The position numbers and the translations under genes are program-made. A stretch of 9,101 nucleotides of DNA from Desulfocapsa sp. (GTDB taxonomy: Bacteria > Desulfobacterota > Desulfobulbia > Desulfobulbales > Desulfocapsaceae). Location of the stretch: assembly GCA_030635405.1 (NCBI GenBank), contig DAOVZA010000053.1, forward strand, positions 1 through 9,101, written 5' to 3'. This document shows positions 1-9,101 of the stretch, in pieces. How positions within the stretch are numbered: position 1 is the first letter of the stretch; the number at the start of each line of letters is the position of its first letter. A model generated the notes under the pieces. That model was not told the origin of the DNA and did not search any database. It saw nothing but the letters and a program-made list of their open reading frames with translations.

Positions 1-93
1 GGGATATACTGCATAAAAATCCAGAGAATATCGTTCTTTTATGGAGATCCTGAAGGAAATCCGGAAATACAATTGCTTTTAAAACAATCATGA
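1..93 (+). CDS. Possible 3' end of an upstream gene (partial)
   Basis: Frame 1 is open from the window edge to a TGA at 91-93 and reads as a plausible C-terminus that includes FFYGDPEGNPEIQLL. This loosely resembles the closing strand of vicinal-oxygen-chelate (glyoxalase-like) domains, where a DPxGN turn precedes a metal-binding Glu. Thirty open codons is weak evidence on its own, and frame 3 also gives a sensible-looking end (stop 51-53, residues NPENIVLLWRS). The call is tentative; the upstream sequence would settle which frame is used. Confidence 0.25.
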   Translation, partial: GIYCIKIQRISFFYGDPEGNPEIQLLLKQS

Positions 94-109
94 CTATCCT
101 ACACAATAC

Positions 110-163
110 AAAAGTGACTCATACGCTATAACACTCAGACGTATCGAGTAAAGTATCACTTTT
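110..163. repeat. Long imperfect hairpin upstream of rnr
   Basis: Outer arms AAAAGTGA (110-117) and TCACTTTT (156-163) are exact reverse complements. Inside them ACTCATACG (117-125) pairs with CGTAT(C)GAGT (140-149), with one bulged C at 145. The loop is 126-139 and contains TATAAC (127-132), which could be a -10 element. The structure could be a poor terminator for the preceding gene (its T run lies within the outer stem) or a regulatory hairpin or operator for rnr. No good -35 element is visible at the right distance from TATAAC. Confidence 0.4.
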
Positions 164-211
164 CCGCAACTCTGCCAAATTAAAAGCTTCTTGGAAAAAA
201 TAAAAATAAAA

Positions 212-2437
212 ATGCACAAAAAAAAACGTTTCAAACAGAAAAAAAAATCAAACAGACATAACCGTAACAAGCAATTCAACAAGAGCAATTCTCACGATGA
301 CAACCTGTACCAGCAGGTTTTGACACTTTTTTATAAATGGGCAACTCCTTTAGACAACAAAGACATTTTTAAACAGTTAGGCCTTCCACTTTCAGACAGA
401 AAGCCACTTCATCGTCTCCTGCTCCAGCTCACAAGTGAAAAAATCCTCACTGAGGTAGAAAAATACACCTATGAAGCTGGGCTCAAAAACGGGCTTGCCG
501 AAGGAACCATTGATATAAACACAAAGGGTTTTGGCTTTGTAAGTGGCCTCACCTCACAACTTGGGCCCACAAATTACACAAGAGATGCTTTCATTTCGCC
601 AACAAACGTGGGCAATGCCCATCATGGCGATAAAGTTCTGATACGGATCTATAAGGTAAAAAAAGATGGTCGGCCAGAGGCTGAAGTTCTTACGGTTCTA
701 GGACGAGGCCGTGAACAAATGGCTGGGTTTGTCTCCTTGCAGGGAGCTCAGACCTTTGTTTATCCAGAAGACTCAAGGTATCCTTTTACAATCCGCATAA
801 CCGAGAATATCCCTGAAAATCTGCAGGATGGCGATGCTGTTATCGTGAAGATAACAGGAGAAAGTAACGACAGCCATCACGAAGAAGGCACTCTTATTGA
901 GGTACTTGGTGATCCTGACCTTGTTGATGTTCAGATGCGAATGGTTATAGAAAACCATGGCCTGCCCCACAAATTCAGCGAGAAAACTGAAGCACAGGTT
1001 GACGCAATCAGTGATGAGATCATCCCTTCTGACGGAAGGCTTGATCTACGAGACATTCAGCATGTGACCATCGATGGTGAAACAGCCAAAGATTTTGACG
1101 ATGCCATAGCCGTTATCAAAACACCTAAAGGATTTAAACTCTACGTTTCCATTGCTGACGTGGCCCATTATGTCCGTATAGGAACAGCACTTGATAAAGA
1201 CGCCTACGAGCGTGGAACTTCCATTTACTTTCCGGGTCGGGTTATTCCCATGCTCCCTGAAAAACTCTCAAATGGCCTGTGCAGTCTGGTGCCGGATGAA
1301 GACCGCTATGCCTTCACCGCCATACTCGACTTTGACAGAGCAGGACATCTTCATAAAAAATCATTTACAAAATCAATTATCTGCAGCAAAAAACGTTTCA
1401 CATATACAACAGTCAGACAAATCTTAACGGATCATGATCTTGATGTGAGACGGCAGTATAAAGAGTTCCTTACACCTTTAAAATGGGCTGGTGAACTTGC
1501 CAGCGCTCTCATGCTGTTAAGAGAACAACGAGGCTCAATTGGCTTCACAATTCCCGAACCATTTATGGAATTAAACGATGAGGGAAAAATTTCTTCAATC
1601 AGTCGTACCGAGAGAAATTTTGCTCATAAGCTCATAGAAGAATTTATGCTCGCTGCAAACGAAGCCGTTGCAGAAACATTTACAGAAAACCACCTCGAAG
1701 GGCTTTATCGTATCCATGAGCGTCCATCTCCTGAAAAAATTCAGGAATTTGTCGAATTTGGACGATCGCTTGGTATTGACCTGCCGCCTCTTCGTCAGGA
1801 TCCCGACTGGTTTGGGCAAGTTCTTGCCCTGGTAAAGGATAGTCCAAAGGAATACGTTATCAACAATCTCCTTTTACGCACCATGCAACAGGCGAAATAC
1901 GATTCAAAAAACGTTGGTCATTTTGGGTTAGCAGCAACGGATTATGCACATTTCACATCCCCGATCCGTCGTTATCCAGACCTTACTGTTCACCGGACAT
2001 TACAAAACTTTCTCCAACGGCGAGCGAAGATAAAAACCAGACAGAAGGAATCAAAAGTAACAATTAAAGATATGGGAGTATTTCTTTCTGCCCGTGAACG
2101 CATAGCAGTAAAGGCTGAACGTGAAATGAATGACAGACTGAAAGTCCGATTTATGCACAACAAAGTTGGAGAAGAATTTCAGGCTGTTATTTCAGGAGTT
2201 ACTGCATCTGCTATTTTTGTTGAACTCACAGAACTTTTTGTCAGTGGTGGTATTTCACTCACCACACTGAAAGATGACTACTATGTCTTTGATGGTAAAC
2301 ATCATCGCCTTACAGGAAAACATAGCGGAAGGTCTTTTCAGATTGGTGATATGTTGCAGGTTATACTTCTCGATGTTGACCTGCGGCGCAATCGAATCTA
2401 TTTTGGCCCGCTTGCGCCCAAGAAGAAAACTACATAA
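212..2437 (+). CDS. rnr: Ribonuclease R (RNB-family 3'-5' exoribonuclease)
   Basis: Processive, hydrolytic 3'-5' exoribonuclease that degrades structured RNA, mRNA fragments and defective rRNA/tRNA in the cytoplasm. From the ATG at 212 the protein has 741 residues. It has a Lys-rich N-terminal tail (about 1-25), a winged-helix RNase R domain (about 34-85), cold-shock OB domains (GTIDINTKGFGFV near 98-110, then a second), the RNB catalytic domain (about 240-600) and a C-terminal S1 domain (about 650-735). The RNB signature DGETAKDFDDA at 288-298 supplies the metal-binding acidic residues (D288, D294, D296, D297), and SPIRRYPDL at 583-591 is the conserved Arg-containing motif. The frame also opens at an in-frame TTG (191), adding seven Lys-rich residues. 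Neither start has a clear Shine-Dalgarno, so ATG is preferred by codon only. The basic tail is at the N-terminus, whereas E. coli RNase R carries its long Lys-rich tail at the C-terminus. trmJ follows 32 nt later. Confidence 0.96.
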   Translation: MHKKKRFKQKKKSNRHNRNKQFNKSNSHDDNLYQQVLTLFYKWATPLDNKDIFKQLGLPLSDRKPLHRLLLQLTSEKILTEVEKYTYEAGLKNGLAEGTIDINTKGFGFVSGLTSQLGPTNYTRDAFISPTNVGNAHHGDKVLIRIYKVKKDGRPEAEVLTVLGRGREQMAGFVSLQGAQTFVYPEDSRYPFTIRITENIPENLQDGDAVIVKITGESNDSHHEEGTLIEVLGDPDLVDVQMRMVIENHGLPHKFSEKTEAQVDAISDEIIPSDGRLDLRDIQHVTIDGETAKDFDDAIAVIKTPKGFKLYVSIADVAHYVRIGTALDKDAYERGTSIYFPGRVIPMLPEKLSNGLCSLVPDEDRYAFTAILDFDRAGHLHKKSFTKSIICSKKRFTYTTVRQILTDHDLDVRRQYKEFLTPLKWAGELASALMLLREQRGSIGFTIPEPFMELNDEGKISSISRTERNFAHKLIEEFMLAANEAVAETFTENHLEGLYRIHERPSPEKIQEFVEFGRSLGIDLPPLRQDPDWFGQVLALVKDSPKEYVINNLLLRTMQQAKYDSKNVGHFGLAATDYAHFTSPIRRYPDLTVHRTLQNFLQRRAKIKTRQKESKVTIKDMGVFLSARERIAVKAEREMNDRLKVRFMHNKVGEEFQAVISGVTASAIFVELTELFVSGGISLTTLKDDYYVFDGKHHRLTGKHSGRSFQIGDMLQVILLDVDLRRNRIYFGPLAPKKKTT

Positions 2438-2469
2438 GACTTCACTTTTCTTGTATCTACAGATCAATC

Positions 2470-3216
2470 ATGCCACAAAGCCATCCGCTCTTAGATAATA
2501 TTGCCATCGTACTGGTGGAACCTAAATACCCAGAGAATATTGGTTCAGCAGCACGAGCAGCCTGGAATATGGGCATCACTCGGTTGATTGTTGTGGCAAA
2601 GGAATACCCAAATCATTCACGGATGGTAAAGCTGGCTACCCACAATGCAGCACATCTCATTGACAACATGGCATTCCATGAAAATCTGGCAGATGCTCTG
2701 AAACCTTTTTCAAAAGTTATTGGAACAACTGCTCGTAAAGGTCGACACAGAGGACCCGGCAACAGTCCTCGAGATATCATGAAAATCATTCTGCCGCTGT
2801 TGCCAGAAAATGACATCGCATTTCTTTTTGGTGCTGAAGATCGTGGCCTCACCAATGACGATCTTAACTATTGTCAACTTCGTTCAGCCATCCCAACCTG
2901 TGATTTTTCTTCTTTAAACCTGGCTCAGGCAGTGGCTATTCATTGCTATGAAATCTTTCATTCCGTGGTTCATGAACAAAAAGAGCTTATTCCCAAACCT
3001 AAAATTGCCACATCCTATGAAGTTGAAAATATGTATCAATACGTGGAAAACAGTTTAGGAAAGATCGATTTTTTACGAGATAAAAGCCACGACTATTACA
3101 TGCGTAATATTAGACAATTCTTTGGTCGGATTGAGTTGAAATCCAAGGAGACAAAACTGGTGCAGAGCATCTGCCAGCAATTTCTCTCAAACGCTTCCAA
3201 AGAAAACGGCAAGTAA
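2470..3216 (+). CDS. trmJ: tRNA (cytidine/uridine-2'-O-)-methyltransferase, TrmJ type
   Basis: SPOUT (SpoU) methyltransferase of 248 residues, expected to 2'-O-methylate nucleotide 32 of tRNA anticodon loops using SAM. All three SpoU motifs are present: motif 1 with N23 and GSAAR 25-29 (R29 the likely catalytic Arg), motif 2 FLFGAEDRGL 118-127, and motif 3 SSLNLAQAVAI 147-157, which forms the knot that binds SAM. The opening IVLVEPKYPENIGSAARA and a roughly 80-residue helical C-terminal extension are typical of TrmJ rather than TrmH or TrmL. The ATG at 2470 lies 32 nt after rnr with no terminator or obvious promoter between them, so the two are probably co-transcribed. The Shine-Dalgarno is weak. 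Family assignment is firm. Target nucleotide 32 is inferred from the family. Confidence 0.93.
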   Translation: MPQSHPLLDNIAIVLVEPKYPENIGSAARAAWNMGITRLIVVAKEYPNHSRMVKLATHNAAHLIDNMAFHENLADALKPFSKVIGTTARKGRHRGPGNSPRDIMKIILPLLPENDIAFLFGAEDRGLTNDDLNYCQLRSAIPTCDFSSLNLAQAVAIHCYEIFHSVVHEQKELIPKPKIATSYEVENMYQYVENSLGKIDFLRDKSHDYYMRNIRQFFGRIELKSKETKLVQSICQQFLSNASKENGK

Positions 3217-3319
3217 TCTACCATCTTTCTTTTCAACTCTAAACGTAGTATCTTAGATTGAAATTTATTGTTGCACGATAGCTACAGGGTTGCTAATAAT
3301 TCAGAACATTTCAGCCACA

Positions 3320-3346
3320 TCGACAATATCTTATATTATTTATAAT
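3320..3346 (+). promoter_or_regulatory. Candidate sigma-70-type promoter for the EHD-like GTPase gene
   Basis: TCGACA (3320-3325, 5/6 to TTGACA) and a perfect TATAAT (3341-3346) are separated by 15 nt, slightly short of the usual 16-18. Transcription would start near 3353, giving a leader of about 37 nt before the ATG at 3390. This fits the 173-nt gap after trmJ. The surrounding DNA is AT-rich, so chance matches are possible. Confidence 0.45.
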
Positions 3347-3389
3347 ACGATTCAACTTTTCATCAATACGTCACACAGAGAGCTTATCC

Positions 3390-4736
3390 ATGCTTGCAAG
3401 TAAACTACAAACAGAAATCCAAAACAGAGTTAATAAAAAAATAGCACCATTATTTTCAAAATACGACATGGATTTTAGTAGTCTTGAATCCAGCATGAAA
3501 TGGAAACCCATTGTCCTCATAATTGGCAACTACTCCTCTGGAAAGTCAACACTCATCAACGAACTTATTGGTGCTGATATTCAGCGCACAGCACAGGCTG
3601 CAACCGTTGCTGCCTGCTCGGTTATCACTGCTGAAGGAAGCAACCGCCCTGAAGAAGTTCCTGGCTCCACACTGGTCAATGATGATCGCCTGCCATTTGT
3701 TAAATTCAAACAATATGGTGAAAAGCTTATCTCTCATATGTGCCTGAAAAACATTGATTCTCCCACCTTTGAGAACATGGCTATCATTGACAGTCCCGGA
3801 ATGCTTGATGCCACAACAGAGAAAGATCGTGGCTACGACTACATGGAAGTGTTGGGTGAATTTGCTAAAATGGCTGATCTTATCGTGCTTATGTTTGACC
3901 CCCATAAGGCTGGTACAATTAAGGAAACCTATTCTGCAATACGAAATACTCTGCCGGAGAAATCTGGTGAAGATAGAATTGTCTTTGTCATGAGTCGAAT
4001 TGATGAATGTGACAATATCAGTGATCTTGTTCGTTCCTACGGCACACTGTGCTGGAATATGTCTCAAATGACTGGTCGTAAAGATATCCCTCACATTTAC
4101 CTTACTTATGCTCCTGAACTCACAAATTCCGTCAAAGCCCAAGATTCATGGCCACAGGAAAGAAAAGAGCTGATGGAGAAAATCTACGCTGCCCCTAATC
4201 TTCGTCTGAATCACATATTGGAAGATATTGATCGTCAGGTAAATGAACTTGGCATAGTTTCTGAAGCCCTTGCTGAATTTACACAAAGAGGCCGAAAACT
4301 CTTTAGAAAAATCGGGAAAATAACCGTTGGTCTTGCAGTTGCCTTATTCTGTTTTGGCGACGTCATAACAAACAGCCTTATTTCTCTCCCTAAGCAAACT
4401 CTTATTTCATCTCTTCGCGGAGAAGGATTGACCGTCACAAGTCTGATTATGCCTCTTCTTTTTCTCCGTGGTACTCTGGCTGTTGGAATGTTAATTTTCA
4501 ATAATTTTGGTTTTAAGGGCCTTCTCAAAAAATCCCTCTCGGACAGCAGTGATCTTGTTGATCTTGACACTGAATATCGTAAAAACCTCTGGAATAAGAT
4601 GGCTGGAAAAACCGAAAAACTGATACAAAACAGTGGATCCAAGGACATTTGGCAAGGACATATCAGCAATCAGAACAAGATACGCCGTTTCCTTGATGAA
4701 GATCTGAAAAAATATTACGACAAGTTAAGATCGTAA
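3390..4736 (+). CDS. EHD/dynamin-like membrane-associated GTPase
   Basis: Predicted 448-residue GTPase. The P-loop is GNYSSGKST (46-54, K52, S53). Candidate switch Thr residues lie in QRTAQAATVA (65-74), and G3 is DSPG at 134-137. The segment after it (RGYDYMEVLGEFAKMADLIVLMFDPHKAG, 147-175) strongly resembles eukaryotic EHD proteins, in which the G domain is followed by RGYDF and FDAHK motifs. The G4 position reads MSRID (201-205), so the usual NKxD is S-R-I-D with only the Asp kept. The C-terminal part has two hydrophobic stretches (about 309-331 and 346-371) joined by a short loop, flanked by amphipathic helices, suggesting insertion in the inner membrane with the GTPase cytoplasmic. By family a membrane-remodelling or tethering role is likely; the actual process is unknown. 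The start has only a weak AGAG upstream. It appears to be a single-gene unit between its own promoter and terminator. Confidence 0.85.
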   Translation: MLASKLQTEIQNRVNKKIAPLFSKYDMDFSSLESSMKWKPIVLIIGNYSSGKSTLINELIGADIQRTAQAATVAACSVITAEGSNRPEEVPGSTLVNDDRLPFVKFKQYGEKLISHMCLKNIDSPTFENMAIIDSPGMLDATTEKDRGYDYMEVLGEFAKMADLIVLMFDPHKAGTIKETYSAIRNTLPEKSGEDRIVFVMSRIDECDNISDLVRSYGTLCWNMSQMTGRKDIPHIYLTYAPELTNSVKAQDSWPQERKELMEKIYAAPNLRLNHILEDIDRQVNELGIVSEALAEFTQRGRKLFRKIGKITVGLAVALFCFGDVITNSLISLPKQTLISSLRGEGLTVTSLIMPLLFLRGTLAVGMLIFNNFGFKGLLKKSLSDSSDLVDLDTEYRKNLWNKMAGKTEKLIQNSGSKDIWQGHISNQNKIRRFLDEDLKKYYDKLRS

Positions 4737-4744
4737 TATTTTTT
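4707..4744 (+). terminator. Hairpin terminator overlapping the GTPase stop codon
   Basis: AAAAAATATTACGA (4707-4720) and TCGTAATATTTTTT (4731-4744) are exact reverse complements, giving a 14-bp stem with a 10-nt loop. The T run (4739-4744) forms its 3' end. The TAA stop (4734-4736) sits in the right arm. The A-tract/T-tract symmetry could allow function on both strands. The stem has few G-C pairs, so efficiency may be modest. Confidence 0.5.
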
Positions 4745-4863
4745 ATCCGAGAACGTGATGTCAAGTGACCATAAAGTAACGAAGATATCTTTTCCGTAAT
4801 ACCAAATAACCTTATTTCATTCAAAAAAACCTAGCTACAAACTGGAACAGCCACTGAATAACC

Positions 4864-4890
4864 CGATATCATAAACAATATTTTATATCG
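4864..4890. repeat. Inverted repeat upstream of the -24/-12 promoter
   Basis: CGATAT (4864-4869) is mirrored by ATATCG (4885-4890) around a 15-nt AT-rich centre, with further partial symmetry inward. It ends 19 nt before the -24/-12 element, about 45-70 nt upstream of the expected transcription start. This is where an enhancer-binding activator for sigma-54 could sit, though such sites are often further away. No match to a known activator motif is claimed. Confidence 0.3.
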
Positions 4891-4908
4891 ACCAGCAACA
4901 ATTCATAA

Positions 4909-4924
4909 TGGCATCATTTTCGCA
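4909..4924 (+). promoter_or_regulatory. Candidate sigma-54 (-24/-12) promoter
   Basis: TGGCATCATTTTCGCA matches the RpoN consensus TGGCACG-N4-TTGCW at 10 of 12 defined or semi-defined positions that I can align, missing only C6, G7 and one T of TTGC. The invariant GG (4910-4911) and GC (4922-4923) have the required 10-nt separation. The start of transcription would fall near 4935, leaving a leader of about 40 nt that contains the GGTGA ribosome-binding site (4964-4968). The downstream gene is flagellar, a class often under RpoN control. Confidence 0.65.
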
Positions 4925-4973
4925 TTAAATTTTAAGAAAGTTATTAATTGTAAAGATAAATTATGGTGACGAA

Positions 4974-5327
4974 ATGATATCTGGCGTTAATCAAGCCCTC
5001 TCAGGGCTTCAGGCATTTGGAACAAAACTTGAATCCAATGCCAACAATATTGCCAATGCATCCACAGAAGGATACAAGAAAACAAGAGTTACTCTGGCAA
5101 ACCAGGCTCCACAGGGAGTACAAGCAAGTGTTGAAACAATAGACAGCCCTGGCACACAGATACTCGAACAGACAAACAATGGGAGTGAGCTTATTGAACA
5201 GTCAAATGTTGATCTGGGCGAAGAACTTCCGGACACACAACTTAATGCCAGATTTTATGAGGCGAATTTAAAGACACTGGAAGTCAGTGATCAAATGATG
5301 GGAGAAATGCTGAACTTAAAAGCATAA
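4974..5327 (+). CDS. Small flagellar basal-body rod-family protein (FlgC/FlgG-like)
   Basis: 117-residue protein with both ends of the flagellar rod/hook axial family. N-terminal SGVNQALSGLQAFGTKLESN leads into ANNIANASTEGYKKTR (23-38), the Flg_bb_rod signature. The C-terminus has SNVDLGEEL (77-85) and a heptad-rich helix ending EMLNLKA (85-117), as in FlgC and FlgG. The two helices would form the coiled-coil axial core. The middle (about 40-76) is short, so the protein is smaller than typical FlgC (about 135-150). It may be a minimal rod-like subunit exported by the flagellar apparatus, or a divergent paralogue. No other flagellar gene is in the window, so it is an orphan with a private -24/-12 promoter and a strong terminator. 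GGTGA (4964-4968) serves as ribosome-binding site. Family membership is well supported. Identity with FlgC itself is not established. Confidence 0.82.
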   Translation: MISGVNQALSGLQAFGTKLESNANNIANASTEGYKKTRVTLANQAPQGVQASVETIDSPGTQILEQTNNGSELIEQSNVDLGEELPDTQLNARFYEANLKTLEVSDQMMGEMLNLKA

Positions 5328-5354
5328 CAAATCTACAAAGATAAAAGCAGATTT

Positions 5355-6011
5355 CTACCTCTCCACCCGTTGTAACGGACACTCGTTACAACGGGGTTTT
5401 GTTTTTTTACAGAACTCCTTTGCCACAGCAACAATCAAGGCATGAAATTCATTAAAAAGTGGAGCGTCTTCAGGTAAATTATCCATGAACTCCTGTTGCA
5501 GACTGAAATAATCAGTATCTTCCTCAACAAGCTGATGCCTGGAAAAAACACGGTGTGTATAGGTATCAATCACAAAAATTGGTTTTTCTGCTGCATACAA
5601 TAAAATGGCATCGGCCGTCTCAGGCCCCACACCTTTAACCCTCAAAAGATTTTCACGACTGTCTTCCAGATTATCCTCAAAGAAAAACTCTAGTTCTCCT
5701 TCATACTCATCAACAATCATCTGAAACAAATTCTTCAATCTGCGAGCTTTAATATTATAGTAACCAGACGGTCGAACATACTCAGCAAGCAGTTCCTGAT
5801 CCATTTCAAGAAGAGTGGTAAACGAAAAATTGCCAGATTGTTTAAGATTTGTAAGAGCCTTTTCCACGTTCCCCCAATTCGTATTTTGGGTTAACACGGC
5901 ACCAACCATCATTTCAAGTGGTGTTTCACAGGGCCACCACCCTTGCGAGCCATAATGATTAAACAACCTGTCATATACACGTAGGAAAAGATTACTATTT
6001 TCTTCTTTCAT
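5355..6011 (-). CDS. EndoIII-superfamily DNA glycosylase, MagIII-like
   Basis: 218-residue HhH-GPD base-excision repair protein. The helix-hairpin-helix is VKGVGPETADAILLYA (125-140), followed by the catalytic Asp in VIDTYTHRV (D149). The E. coli EndoIII catalytic Lys position is E131 (GPETAD), so beta-lyase activity is unlikely and a monofunctional glycosylase is expected. The N-terminal WWPCE (25-29), GAVLTQNT (37-44) and VRPSGYYNIKARRL (79-92) segments resemble Helicobacter MagIII, a 3-methyladenine glycosylase of this superfamily. The C-terminus keeps three Cys of the Fe-S loop, C201-x6-C208-x2-C211, but the expected fourth (217) is Glu and the protein stops at 218. Substrate (alkylated purine versus other damage) is inferred from resemblance only. 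It starts 11 nt after pfk and is probably translated from the same mRNA. Its last codons overlap the terminator of the convergent flagellar gene. Confidence 0.88.
   Translation of the reverse strand: MKEENSNLFLRVYDRLFNHYGSQGWWPCETPLEMMVGAVLTQNTNWGNVEKALTNLKQSGNFSFTTLLEMDQELLAEYVRPSGYYNIKARRLKNLFQMIVDEYEGELEFFFEDNLEDSRENLLRVKGVGPETADAILLYAAEKPIFVIDTYTHRVFSRHQLVEEDTDYFSLQQEFMDNLPEDAPLFNEFHALIVAVAKEFCKKTKPRCNECPLQRVER
5366..5408 (+). terminator. Strong intrinsic terminator of the flagellar gene
   Basis: CCCGTTGTAACG (5366-5377) and CGTTACAACGGG (5384-5395) form a perfect 12-bp stem with a 6-nt loop (GACACT), followed by TTTTGTTTTTTT (5397-5408). It is directional for + strand transcripts, since the minus-strand side has no T tract after the stem. 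It lies 38 nt after the flagellar stop codon and entirely within the coding sequence of the convergent glycosylase, covering its residues 202-216. Confidence 0.9.
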
Positions 6012-6022
6012 TGCTTACTTAT

Positions 6023-7108
6023 TCAGTCTCCCAGACAAATACCAATTTCTCTGGCCGTAAATACCTTATCATTATCCAGATTAACTTTTTTTCTCGATTT
6101 TACAGCATCTTCCAAGGGAACAGAGCTCATATTGGGAGATATTAAAGCCACCATATGACCAAATTTTCCTTCCTCAACCAGACGAACTGCAGCGGCTCCG
6201 AAACGCATGGCCAGCAATCGATCAAAAGTAGTTGGTGATCCACCACGTTGCAAATGCCCGAGAACAAGTGACCTGGTATCTTTACCGGTGCGCTCCCTAA
6301 TTTCGGAAGCAACCCATTCACCAATTCCTCCAAGGAGCAATTCCTTCCGCCCAACTTCACCCTTACCCTTAGTTATCACTTGGCCACCAGCTGCCACAGC
6401 ACCTTCAGCCACCACAATTATCGCATAATCCTTATCATGAAGAGCATTATCCATGATTTTCTCACAGACCTTTTCCATCTCAAAGGGTAGTTCCGGTATT
6501 AAAATTACATCCGCTCCACCTGAAATCCCTGAATAGAGAGCAATCCATCCGGCGTCTCTACCCATCACTTCAACCACCATAACCCGGTCATGAGATTTGG
6601 CAGTTGAATGGAGCTTATCTAATGCTTCTGTAGCAGTTGAAACGGCAGTATCAAAACCAAAGGTTCGATCAGTTGCCTCCAGGTCATTATCAATTGTCTT
6701 AGGCACCCCTATCACAGGCATGCCCTTCACGGCAAACTTACGAGCGATTTCCAGACTCCCATCGCCACCTATGGCGATATGACAATCAAATCCCATTCGT
6801 TTAAAGTTATGAAGAATCTTGTCAGACACATCAACAATAGTCATTTCTCCTGCTAGATTTTCAACGGGCATGGCAAAAGGATCACCTTTATTGGTGGAAC
6901 CTATGATTGTTCCGCCAGTTGAGTAAATATCCTCGACATCGTCAACCCCAAGCCTTACAAGCTCATCCATATCGAGTAGTCCTTTATAACCACTCCGACT
7001 ACCGTAAACTTCCCAACCACGTTTATAGCACGCATGAACAACGGCATAAATGACAGCATTCAAACCTGGGGCATCACCGCCTCCGGTGGATATAACTATT
7101 TTTTTCAT
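6023..7108 (-). CDS. pfkA: 6-phosphofructokinase
   Basis: 361-residue PFK-A family enzyme catalysing phosphorylation of fructose 6-phosphate to fructose 1,6-bisphosphate in glycolysis (or the reversible reaction if PPi-linked). Motifs are the phosphoryl-donor loop STGGGDAPGLN (7-17), GGDGS (114-118), PKTIDND (136-142, catalytic D140), MGRDAG (182-187), PEL (205-207) and GHLQRGGSPTTFDR (284-297) for substrate and subunit contacts. The donor-specifying positions are Gly117 (ATP-like, E. coli Gly104) and Lys137 (E. coli Gly124; Lys is typical of PPi enzymes). This mixed pair also occurs in ATP-dependent trypanosome PFKs, so ATP use is favoured but not proved. AAAAGG lies 8 nt before the ATG. It is probably the first gene of a two-gene minus-strand operon with the glycosylase. 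Confidence 0.95.
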   Translation of the reverse strand: MKKIVISTGGGDAPGLNAVIYAVVHACYKRGWEVYGSRSGYKGLLDMDELVRLGVDDVEDIYSTGGTIIGSTNKGDPFAMPVENLAGEMTIVDVSDKILHNFKRMGFDCHIAIGGDGSLEIARKFAVKGMPVIGVPKTIDNDLEATDRTFGFDTAVSTATEALDKLHSTAKSHDRVMVVEVMGRDAGWIALYSGISGGADVILIPELPFEMEKVCEKIMDNALHDKDYAIIVVAEGAVAAGGQVITKGKGEVGRKELLLGGIGEWVASEIRERTGKDTRSLVLGHLQRGGSPTTFDRLLAMRFGAAAVRLVEEGKFGHMVALISPNMSSVPLEDAVKSRKKVNLDNDKVFTAREIGICLGD

Positions 7109-7424
7109 ATCAAAAACCTTTTCACATCATTTGTTTTTCATATCAGCGTATTGATGAATATAGTCGAAAAAAAGAATACTTACCCAATAGTTAAAATCAA
7201 AACAATTAACCCTTCCCTACTTTCAAAGAACATGACAGCCTCTTTGGGAATGATTTTCACAGAACAAAGATTGACTTCTCTATGTGAGTTATTATGTTTG
7301 TATGATATCATTTCCACAGATGATGGAAAGAACAATCTAACTTGGCGGTCAGATTACATTATTTTAAATTTGCAAATTAAAGAGATTTTTTTCTTTGCTA
7401 TCTTTTATTTTACAGGAGGTTTTC
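7109..7424. other. Divergent intergenic region between pfk and the selenoprotein gene
   Basis: A 316-nt stretch with no convincing gene. For the minus strand, a weak TTGATT (7200-7195) and TATTCT (7178-7173) pair with a 16-nt spacer could start pfk. For the plus strand, TTGGCG (7342-7347) and TAAATT (7365-7370) are spaced by 17 nt, and an alternative TTGACT (7271-7276) and TATGTT (7293-7298) by 16 nt. Two perfect palindromes are present: ATGATATCAT (7302-7311) and AATTTGCAAATT (7367-7378). All promoter matches here are 4-5 of 6 per box in AT-rich DNA and are only suggestive. Confidence 0.4.
7342..7370 (+). promoter_or_regulatory. Candidate promoter of the selenoprotein gene
   Basis: TTGGCG (-35, 4/6) and TAAATT (-10, 4/6) have the ideal 17-nt spacing and would start transcription near 7377, about 48 nt before the ATG. 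The palindrome AATTTGCAAATT (7367-7378) overlaps the -10 and start site, where a repressor could act. The boxes are weak, so this is a best guess among several. Confidence 0.3.
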
Positions 7425-7769
7425 ATGTCTGATTTTACAGTAACAGACGAAGCAGTTGTAAAGCTTAAGGAATACTTGGAACAGAACAATATCAGTTCTG
7501 CTCTCCGTATTGCTTTAATGCAAGGCGGCTGAGCTGGCCCTTCATTGGGATTGGCTCTGGATGAGCCAAAAGATAACGACAACGTATACGACCAGGACGA
7601 CCTTAAATTTCTGGTTGAAGAAGGTTTAATGAGCACCTGTGGTTCCATCAAAGTTGAATTTATTGATGCTGGACCACGATCAGGCTTTGGAATTACTTCC
7701 ACCAACTCCATTGCTGGTAGTGGTGGCGGATGCAGTTCCGGATCCTGTGGATCTGGCGGTTGCGGCTGA
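7425..7769 (+). CDS. HesB/IscA-like selenoprotein (in-frame UGA = selenocysteine)
   Basis: One reading frame of 114 residues interrupted by TGA at codon 36 (7530-7532). Reading it as selenocysteine joins a normal start to a conserved downstream half. A strong AGGAGGT (7414-7420) lies 4 nt before the ATG. The N-terminal part (FTVTDEAVVKLKEYL, then ALRIALMQGGUAGPSLGLAL) is the A-type Fe-S carrier fold, and U36 sits where IscA/HesB proteins have their first conserved Cys. The sequence continues through LDEP (45-48), a second core Cys at C72 and GFGI (87-90), and ends in the tail GSGGGCSSGSCGSGGCG (98-114) with C103, C108 and C113 in place of the usual CxC. HesB-like selenoproteins of this design are known from selenoproteome surveys; their exact function (Fe-S carrier, redox or metal handling) is not settled. 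A conventional gene finder would call only the 74-residue part from 7545 or a broken gene. The true stop is also TGA (7767-7769). Confidence 0.88.
7530..7569 (+). promoter_or_regulatory. Candidate bacterial SECIS element
   Basis: Downstream of the recoded UGA (7530-7532), TTGGCTC (7551-7557) and GAGCCAA (7563-7569) form a perfect 7-bp stem with the 5-nt loop TGGAT (7558-7562). The loop begins 25 nt after the UGA and has G as its second base. This fits the general bacterial SECIS rules: short apical loop, G in the first two loop positions, about 16-37 nt from the UGA. The element would recruit SelB with Sec-tRNA while lying inside the coding sequence. Confidence 0.72.
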
Positions 7770-7786
7770 TCCAACTCTGCTTTACC

Positions 7787-7824
7787 AAGTGGTGAATCCT
7801 GTTTCAGGATTCACCACTTTTTTT
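7787..7824 (+). terminator. Strong intrinsic terminator of the selenoprotein gene
   Basis: AAGTGGTGAATCCTG (7787-7801) and CAGGATTCACCACTT (7805-7819) form a perfect 15-bp stem with a TTT loop. The T run 7818-7824 overlaps the stem end. It begins 17 nt after the stop codon and isolates this single-gene unit from clpB. Confidence 0.92.
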
Positions 7825-7886
7825 ATTCTTTCTCTTCTCTGTTACCTCTCGACAGTCCTTCTGTTTGCAATTTTCTTGCCAAAATC

Positions 7887-7915
7887 TTGACACGCACCCT
7901 TTTAATCCTTATTTT
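7887..7915 (+). promoter_or_regulatory. Candidate upstream promoter of clpB
   Basis: A perfect TTGACA (7887-7892) is followed after 17 nt by TATTTT (7910-7915, 4/6). The same -35 reads CTTGAC in context, similar to the heat-shock sigma-32 -35 box, but I see no CCCCAT-type -10. A second -10, the perfect TATAAT at 7963-7968, lies nearer the gene without a good -35. Either could drive clpB. Confidence 0.4.
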
Positions 7916-7967
7916 TCTTTACAAAAGGAAATTCCACTGGATCTAGTTATCCGGTTTTACGATATAA

Positions 7968-7988
7968 TTTATGCGATATCAGCATAAA
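7968..7988. promoter_or_regulatory. Inverted repeat over the presumed clpB start site (operator or leader hairpin)
   Basis: TTTATGC (7968-7974) and GCATAAA (7982-7988) are exact inverted copies separated by 7 nt (GATATCA). The repeat begins at the last base of TATAAT (7963-7968) and spans the expected transcription start near 7975. That is a typical repressor position. It does not match the CIRCE (HrcA) consensus. If transcription starts further upstream, it would instead be a hairpin just ahead of the GGGGAG ribosome-binding site (7997-8002). Confidence 0.45.
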
Positions 7989-8009
7989 CGAAAAAAGGGG
8001 AGAAAGATC

Positions 8010-9101
8010 ATGCAATTCGACAAACTCACAATAAAATCTCAGGAAGCGATACAAAACGCACAGCAACTTGCGCAAAACAATAACAATCAGGAAATCAGAA
8101 TTTCACACCTGGTAAAAACCATACTGGAACAACCTGAAGGAGTTGTTGTACCGGTGCTTCAGAAAATGGGGATAGATCCATCAATCGTCCTCATGGAAAC
8201 AGACAAACTCATAGGCAACATTTCACAGGTAAGCGGAAGTGGCGCTGGCCAGGCCTATCTTTCAAATGACCTGCGAAGAATTATTGACAATTCCTTTAAC
8301 ACTGCCAAGCAGATGCAGGATGACTTTGTCAGCCAGGAACATCTCTTTCTTAATATTATTCAGGACAGAAAATCAGCCAGTGCAAAAATGCTGAAGAAAC
8401 TGAGTGTTGATGAAAAAGGTTTCCTGACTGCACTCACAACCATCCGTGGCAACCAACGAGTCACCGACCAATACCCTGAAGAAAAATATCAGGCTCTTGA
8501 AAAATATGCCCGCAACCTCACTGATGTAGCAAGACAAGGGAAACTTGATCCGGTAATCGGAAGAGATGAGGAAATTCGAAGAATCATTCAGGTCCTCTCA
8601 AGACGTACCAAAAACAATCCAATTCTCATTGGCGAACCCGGTGTAGGCAAGACTGCCATCGCAGAAGGTTTAGCTTTAAGAATAGTTAATGGTGACATCC
8701 CAGCCACTCTTGAAGGAAAACAGGTCATGTCACTTGACCTTGGATCTCTGATTGCTGGTGCCAAATACAGGGGAGAGTTTGAAGACAGGCTAAAAGCGGT
8801 GCTCAAGGAAGTGGAACAACGAGCGGGCGAAATCATTCTCTTTATTGACGAAATCCACACACTCGTAGGTGCTGGTGCTGCCGAAGGATCCATGGATGCA
8901 TCTAATATGCTAAAACCAGCACTTGCCCGAGGTGAGCTTCACTGCATTGGAGCTACGACCCTTGATGAATATCGCAAGTACATTGAAAAGGATGCCGCTC
9001 TTGAGCGAAGATTTCAACCTGTTCTTGTTGAAGAACCCAGTGAAGAGGATACCATCGCAATCCTGCGAGGCATAAAAGAAAAATATGAACTCCACCACGG
9101 A
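8010..9101 (+). CDS. clpB: ATP-dependent chaperone ClpB (3' truncated by window edge)
   Basis: First 364 residues of the Hsp100 disaggregase, which threads aggregated proteins through its hexameric pore together with DnaK/DnaJ/GrpE. The N-terminal double-repeat Clp_N domain spans about 1-145. NBD1 follows, with [16 protein letters not shown] (184-199), Walker A GEPGVGKT (208-215), pore-loop region [10 protein letters not shown] (252-261), Walker [10 protein letters not shown] (275-283, E281) and the Arg-finger region LERRF (331-335). The start [18 protein letters not shown] is characteristic of ClpB rather than ClpA or ClpC. GGGGAG (7997-8002) lies 7 nt before the ATG. The frame is open to the window end; the M-domain and NBD2 lie outside. 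No gene is seen between it and the terminator at 7787-7824. Confidence 0.96.

Follow-up and report, generated by a model that had tools for sequence, protein, structure and literature searches.

Does the small gene interrupted by a UGA on a Desulfocapsa contig encode a selenoprotein, and what might such a protein do? We examined this in a 9,101-nucleotide stretch of Desulfocapsa sp. (assembly GCA_030635405.1, contig DAOVZA010000053.1, positions 1 to 9,101, forward strand; this whole stretch is called the window), in which an open reading frame (ORF) related to the IscA/HesB family continues through an in-frame UGA. A first-pass annotation, made from the sequence alone, had placed the start at ATG 7425 and a selenocysteine (Sec) codon at TGA 7530-7532 of a 114-residue protein. 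These coordinates were correct, and the TGA is codon 36. The features of the predicted gene are as follows.

7414..7419 (+), ribosome-binding site AGGAGG, 5 nt ahead of ATG 7425, read off the sequence
7425..7769 (+), IscA/HesB-family selenoprotein gene (NF038090), 114 residues with Sec as residue 36; the end includes the terminal TGA 7767-7769
7530..7532 (+), predicted Sec codon, the in-frame UGA at codon 36, in the context GG-U-AGPS; TGA in 79 of 80 genome loci
7551..7569 (+), hairpin of the selenocysteine insertion sequence (SECIS) type, stem 7551-7557/7563-7569, apical loop UGGAU at 7558-7562, 25 nt from UGA to loop
7731..7766 (+), Gly/Ser-rich tail with C103, C108 and C113 (C-x4-C-x4-C), predicted to be disordered
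7787..7827 (+), intrinsic terminator, a 15-bp stem with a 3-nt loop (7787-7819) followed by a T-run

The ribosome-binding site and the single terminator had both been proposed earlier, and both were found. The terminator lies after the whole frame and was the only terminator-like site called between 7100 and 8000 on either strand (shuffled sequences averaged 0.6). We also noticed a 136-codon antisense ORF (window 7364-7774, minus strand) that spans the entire selenoprotein gene and has a counterpart in many loci (38). It is likely a shadow of the conserved protein, and a false gene call.

The read-through protein matched the NCBIfam family NF038090 (IscA_HesB_Se) at 134.3 bits (E 1.5e-39, profile positions 2-101 of 101, cut-off 85), in agreement with its initial description as an IscA/HesB-like selenoprotein. 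The 74-residue downstream half alone scored 73.2 bits against the same cut-off of 85, and a Pfam search with the upstream and downstream halves separately gave no family at E<=0.01. PF01521 was reached marginally by the full protein with C substituted for U (26.8 vs 26.3 bits), and 351 of 392 candidate proteins matched at E<=1e-3. In a HMMER alignment (profile A1), Sec36 fell on the first conserved Cys of IscA (1s98), HI1723 (2apn) and AQ_1857 (1nwb), as had been claimed for the first cluster-binding Cys. The first ligand position held a Sec or Cys codon throughout: TGA in the window and, among the best 80 of the 254 stretches confirmed in our genome-contig scan (the 80 loci referred to below), TGA in 79 and TGC in one. 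The in-frame UGA is conserved, and it aligns to the Cys of the homologues.

The predicted protein has the A-type fold. Across 62 aligned sequences C108 was invariant, and C103, C113 and Cys72 were kept at 90% or more; the structure model had a predicted local distance difference test score (pLDDT) below 50 at residues 99-109 and 111-114. Profile, model and alignment together show the fold of the A-type iron-sulfur (Fe-S) carriers; Sec takes the place of the first Cys that binds the cluster, and the tail with its three Cys is flexible. Several points weigh against this assignment. The read-through stayed below the cut-offs of both TIGR00049 (51 bits, cut-off 58.8) and TIGR01911, HesB_rel_seleno (49.2 bits, cut-off 66.35). 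The C-terminal ligand pair of IscA is C-x-C, and this pair is absent from the selenoprotein, whose tail reads C-x4-C-x4-C. As a separate observation, some relatives (L140, L141 and L143) carry a diverged A-type homologue lacking the GGC ligand motif (e.g. VMGNSGLGL, VMGSGSSCGLGL), which scored 26-33 bits with TIGR00049.

We further compared the window with its relatives on both sides of the UGA. Identity to the best of the loci was about 74% at the DNA level across 4-7 kb (contigs of Desulfocapsa and other Desulfobulbales metagenome-assembled genomes, MAGs). Against the 30 best loci, the median omega was 0.06 in the part that precedes the UGA (finite in 27 of the 30 comparisons), 0.085 in the part that follows (29 of 30) and 0.075 past the hairpin (22 of 30). 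By this comparison both halves of the gene are under purifying selection, which upholds the view that the gene is not a pseudogene. In a sample of 116 genomes of the order, 110 had an NF038090-family gene over the cut-off, and at least 105 had, among the matches listed, an over-cut-off copy with one internal TGA. The prediction that standard gene calling would truncate the gene was also borne out: a 74-residue protein starting at TTG 7545 is present in the database (P0070, a cluster of 43 member sequences).

A Sec reading of the UGA calls attention to the hairpin UUGGCUC-UGGAU-GAGCCAA, which can form at 7551-7569 within the codons for LALDEPK. We examined it in 80 UGA genes (the 79 loci and the window), with 18 Cys paralogues, in which the peptide is mostly kept, as the control (each gene entering only once). 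In all 80 UGA genes, the hairpin's codons for Ala, Leu and Glu were fixed as GCT, CTG and GAG, while at other places in these genes the codons for these residues vary freely (heterozygosity 0.71, 0.79 and 0.44). All seven stem pairs were present in 63 UGA genes and six in the other 17 (mean 6.79). In the control, fifteen paralogues had three pairs or fewer, one had four and two (L090 and L127) had six; the paralogues of L127, L132, L134 and L135 had 6, 4, 0 and 2, respectively. The exact inner stem GGCTC/GAGCC was found in 78 of 80 UGA genes vs 1 of 18 Cys genes.

We conclude from these comparisons that the hairpin at 7551-7569 is, as far as sequence can tell, a SECIS element. This reading rests more on the fixed synonymous sites and the Cys control than on folding energies, and some results do not favor it. 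Single-sequence folding energy was mildly below that of shuffles (z -0.98 to -2.23), the lowest-energy structure of a 71-nt window was another fold, and the stem is nearly invariant, so that compensatory changes lend no support. In addition, the Cys paralogues in L090 and L127 still pair at six of seven positions, a level reached by 1.5% of arbitrary stretches (302 of 19,741).

We searched for the Sec machinery in 38 relative genomes, those of the 30 best loci and of eight more among the 80 that were picked for named isolates or odd features. selD was over the cut-off in all 38, most of the best copies themselves having one TGA, and selA in 36. selB was over the cut-off in 33, and in two further genomes it was split at contig ends. 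tRNA-Sec was over the cut-off in 34 genomes, with ordinary genes in 33, since the only such match in G035 is a gene with a GCA anticodon (see below). The same cut-offs were passed in 14 control genomes by selB in 2, selA in 1, selD in 2 and tRNA-Sec in 5; the tRNA-Sec model is thus the least specific. On the negative side, these counts describe relatives and not the genome of the window itself; selB was not seen in three (G004, G017 and G024, all MAGs), and an ordinary tRNA-Sec was not over the cut-off in five (G002, G007, G009, G017 and G035, all MAGs). In G027, a complete chromosome (L027, Desulfosediminicola flagellatus), neither TIGR00474 nor PF03841 matched a selA gene, while the UGA gene, selB, selD and tRNA-Sec were all present. 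Weighing this, we put the probability that UGA 36 is decoded as Sec, and that the protein belongs to the IscA/HesB selenoprotein family, at about 94%, judged from sequence comparisons.

What would the protein do? In 39 of the 116 genomes of the order, no homologue of the A-type Fe-S carriers other than the selenoprotein was detected, and in the 38-genome set NifU was present and SUF nearly absent. Desulfoprunum benzoelyticum DSM 28570 has one of the genomes with a single such homologue. Since no other A-type protein was detected there, the selenoprotein probably does the A-type job in many of the relatives. By sequence comparison, the bacterial SelB pathway reads UGA 36 as Sec, directed by the hairpin. 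In the mechanism we propose, Sec36 and cysteines of the tail, which the conserved Cys72 perhaps joins, would hold an Fe-S cluster or iron, which may come from a NifU-type scaffold and go on to apo-proteins. As a ligand in sulfidic, anoxic conditions, Sec would be stronger, more reducing and easier to repair. Of the roles considered, the likeliest in our view is that of A-type carrier for the cell, with Sec serving as a ligand, at somewhat less than an even chance. Published observations count against it: some bacteria are reported to have no A-type carriers at all (PMC2682760), so being the sole homologue does not prove carrier function, and in M. maripaludis a mutant in a HesB-like selenoprotein was described as not impaired in N2 fixation (PMC11097638).

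The family itself is already known, as had been recognized at the outset: HesB-like selenoproteins are found in surveys published in 2005 and 2006 (PMC1242214, PMC1794560), there is the NF038090 model, and the function of the HesB-like selenoprotein is called not clear in PMC11097638. The counts of genomes in which it is the sole A-type homologue are new, and they raise the interest of the locus above that of an ordinary annotation correction. A survey based on PF01521 reported that A-type carriers are absent from many delta-proteobacteria (PMC2682760). Since the split halves would escape such a survey, this absence might be partly apparent, with the in-frame UGA putting the gene beyond Pfam-based surveys; a sizeable part of the Desulfobulbales would then have the selenoprotein as their only A-type carrier, and their Fe-S cluster delivery would be selenium-dependent. 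We propose this tentatively, with the odds clearly against it. Our literature search among open-licence papers found none linking UGA-split genes to the reported absence. The locus shows how truncation at a UGA can keep a family with a core housekeeping role out of surveys. In bacteria that have NifU-type assembly, for the most part lack SUF and have a single detected A-type homologue, one that bears Sec, the function of HesB-like selenoproteins also becomes a question that gene deletion can answer.

A selenol/thiol oxidoreductase would account for the protein differently: Sec36 would join Cys72 or a Cys of the tail in a selenenylsulfide bond and act in redox or peroxide reactions, with the A-type fold as a mere scaffold. 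The conservation of Cys72 and C108 and the flexible tail noted above are compatible with such a bond, and most uncharacterised selenoproteins are judged likely redox in PMC13188914. Neither a thioredoxin fold nor a UxxC or CxxU motif is present in the protein, however. Sec is moreover aligned to what we take to be the metal-ligand position of the A-type fold family. The first-pass annotation had suggested that the protein does redox chemistry or selenolate metal chemistry and is not a plain Fe-S deliverer. This is possible and so far unsupported, as nothing we found separates the two; the genome-wide evidence leans away from it, because the selenoprotein is often the only A-type homologue detected. 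We consider the oxidoreductase rather unlikely.

Alternatively, the protein could handle selenium or a metal(loid), supplying the Sec pathway with selenide/selenium or a soft metal and not carrying Fe-S clusters. The observations that bear on this come from the genes around the UGA form, and from Cys paralogues that lie near divergent tRNA-Sec-like genes.

6023..7108 (-), phosphofructokinase (PF00365), pfkA, divergent upstream neighbor; upstream on the minus strand in 69 of 81 loci, window included
7971..9101 (+), partial ClpB-type AAA chaperone (Clp_N, AAA; the name ClpB is interpretive); downstream on the plus strand in 71 of 81 loci, window included
L119 4438-4529 (-), L120 5971-6060 (+), L121 6628-6717 (-), L122 5538-5627 (-), L123 995-1086 (+), divergent tRNA-Sec-like genes with anticodon GCA, 55-62 bits

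The tRNA-Sec-like genes with a GCA anticodon (ARAGORN called four of them, and the anticodon of the fifth was taken from its cmscan alignment) were found in 5 of 38 relative genomes. Four of the five lie within 2 kb of an NF038090-family Cys paralogue, and a CCG-domain Fe-S oxidoreductase accompanies the tRNA in four of five. In L119 (Desulfopila aestuarii), the Cys paralogue stands beside selD (itself with a UGA), a gene for the selenium protein YedF and the tRNA-Sec-like gene; selD- and yedF-like genes are also near in L122. This arrangement would suit a role in selenium handling. The UGA form, on the other hand, is flanked by pfkA and clpB, and BLAST clustering with the L119 genes showed no selD in the Cys-paralogue stretches L120, L121, L126, L127 and L136-L138. 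Selenium handling is, in our judgement, improbable.

Some of the Cys paralogues deserve mention in their own right. The only TGC copy of the 80 loci (L058/L090/L120, at about 6263-6595) lies 0.2 kb from a GCA tRNA and keeps six of seven stem pairs; it is possibly a recent UGA-to-UGC change, or a case of SelB-directed sense-codon decoding. Sec decoding of sense codons in the Cys paralogues beside the GCA tRNA is weakened as an idea, since this tRNA fits the described selC* tRNA-Cys (PMC7609411), yet the L058/L090/L120 hairpin is SECIS-like. The paralogue at L127 5811 (G027, the genome with no selA match) has TGT (Cys) and six of seven stem pairs, with an internal A-A mismatch. Its hairpin is perhaps a remnant SECIS; conversion of Sec to Cys with a putative remnant SECIS has been described for Desulfitobacterium (PMC1242214/PMC1794560 surveys). 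Tandem copies with and without the UGA, a few hundred bases apart, were seen in G031 (L137 4370 and 4889, the copy without UGA having Cys) and in five of the 116 order-sample genomes (G049, G069, G077, G085 and G103). This suggests a selenium-dependent isoform switch.

The selC* type of tRNA also raises the idea that UGA 36 is decoded to Cys through an unusual tRNA-Cys that depends on SelB and has a UCA anticodon; selC* tRNA-Cys with this anticodon is described for Desulfobacterales (PMC7609411). The divergent genes of the five relatives read GCA and not UCA, however, the main tRNA-Sec has the UCA anticodon in both of the loci inspected for it, and selA and selD are nearly universal in the relatives (36 and 38 of 38, as given above). 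Decoding as Cys is very improbable. That the in-frame TGA is a sequencing error or marks a dead gene is very unlikely because of its conservation, the low omega and the order-wide UGA copies; together with UGA=Trp, a code that might be read from the 120 listed database homologues (W in 51, C in 67, R in 1 at the Sec position, with P0070 lacking that part), it is refuted at the level of sequence comparison, given also the SECIS element and Sec machinery of the relatives and the use of UGA as a stop at the end of the same gene (66 of 78 loci) and in neighboring genes. The W is as would be expected if short contigs had been called with UGA=Trp.

We set aside the gene neighborhood as a functional clue: the terminator parts the selenoprotein gene from clpB, and other genes recur too, among them (named after the window's genes) endonuclease III (62 loci), a SpoU methylase (33) and RNase R (23). 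The pfkA and clpB flanks are read as inherited order, not a functional link. The terminal stop of the gene shows a bias to TGA, counted as above in the 78 UGA-form loci with the gene end present (66 of 78), while in nine neighboring gene families of the same loci TGA stops made up 4-52% (the antisense shadow cluster, 9 of 39, was left out). The Desulfopila Cys paralogues end CGC-stop, one residue later than the window protein. A second Sec at the terminal UGA 7767-7769 was rejected for the window, where reading on enters the terminator; past the first stop the frames ran for 0-78 codons in the 80 loci, with no shared end seen. The only Rfam match (PsrR1, window 4710-4794; 25.5 vs 42 bits, E 0.23) was sub-threshold and taken as chance. 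A viral contig search gave no relative of the window, and all matches of a plasmid search with the pfkA protein were under 60% identity.

How does the predicted selenoprotein compare with known systems? Within NF038090 it is a plain member: the match is near full-length and over the cut-off, the family name marks Se members, and our tests showed no difference. The HesB-like selenoprotein of TIGR01911 (PMC1794560, PMC13188914) is likewise a HesB protein of small size whose Sec occupies the place of the first ligand Cys, with the motif given as UxGP in PMC13188914; the window protein differs in scoring below the cut-off of that model. From the A-type carriers IscA, SufA and ErpA (TIGR00049, PF01521), it differs by Sec in place of Cys, by the C-x4-C-x4-C tail and by the sub-cut-off TIGR00049 score. 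M. maripaludis MMJJ_08070 is HesB-like too, and mutagenesis together with 75Se labelling demonstrated its Sec (PMC11097638); it is archaeal, and the likeness is drawn by description and not by sequence comparison. With the selC* tRNA-Cys loci (PMC7609411), the tRNA-Sec-like GCA tRNA is held in common, and here it lies near the Cys paralogues of the relatives, not the window gene.
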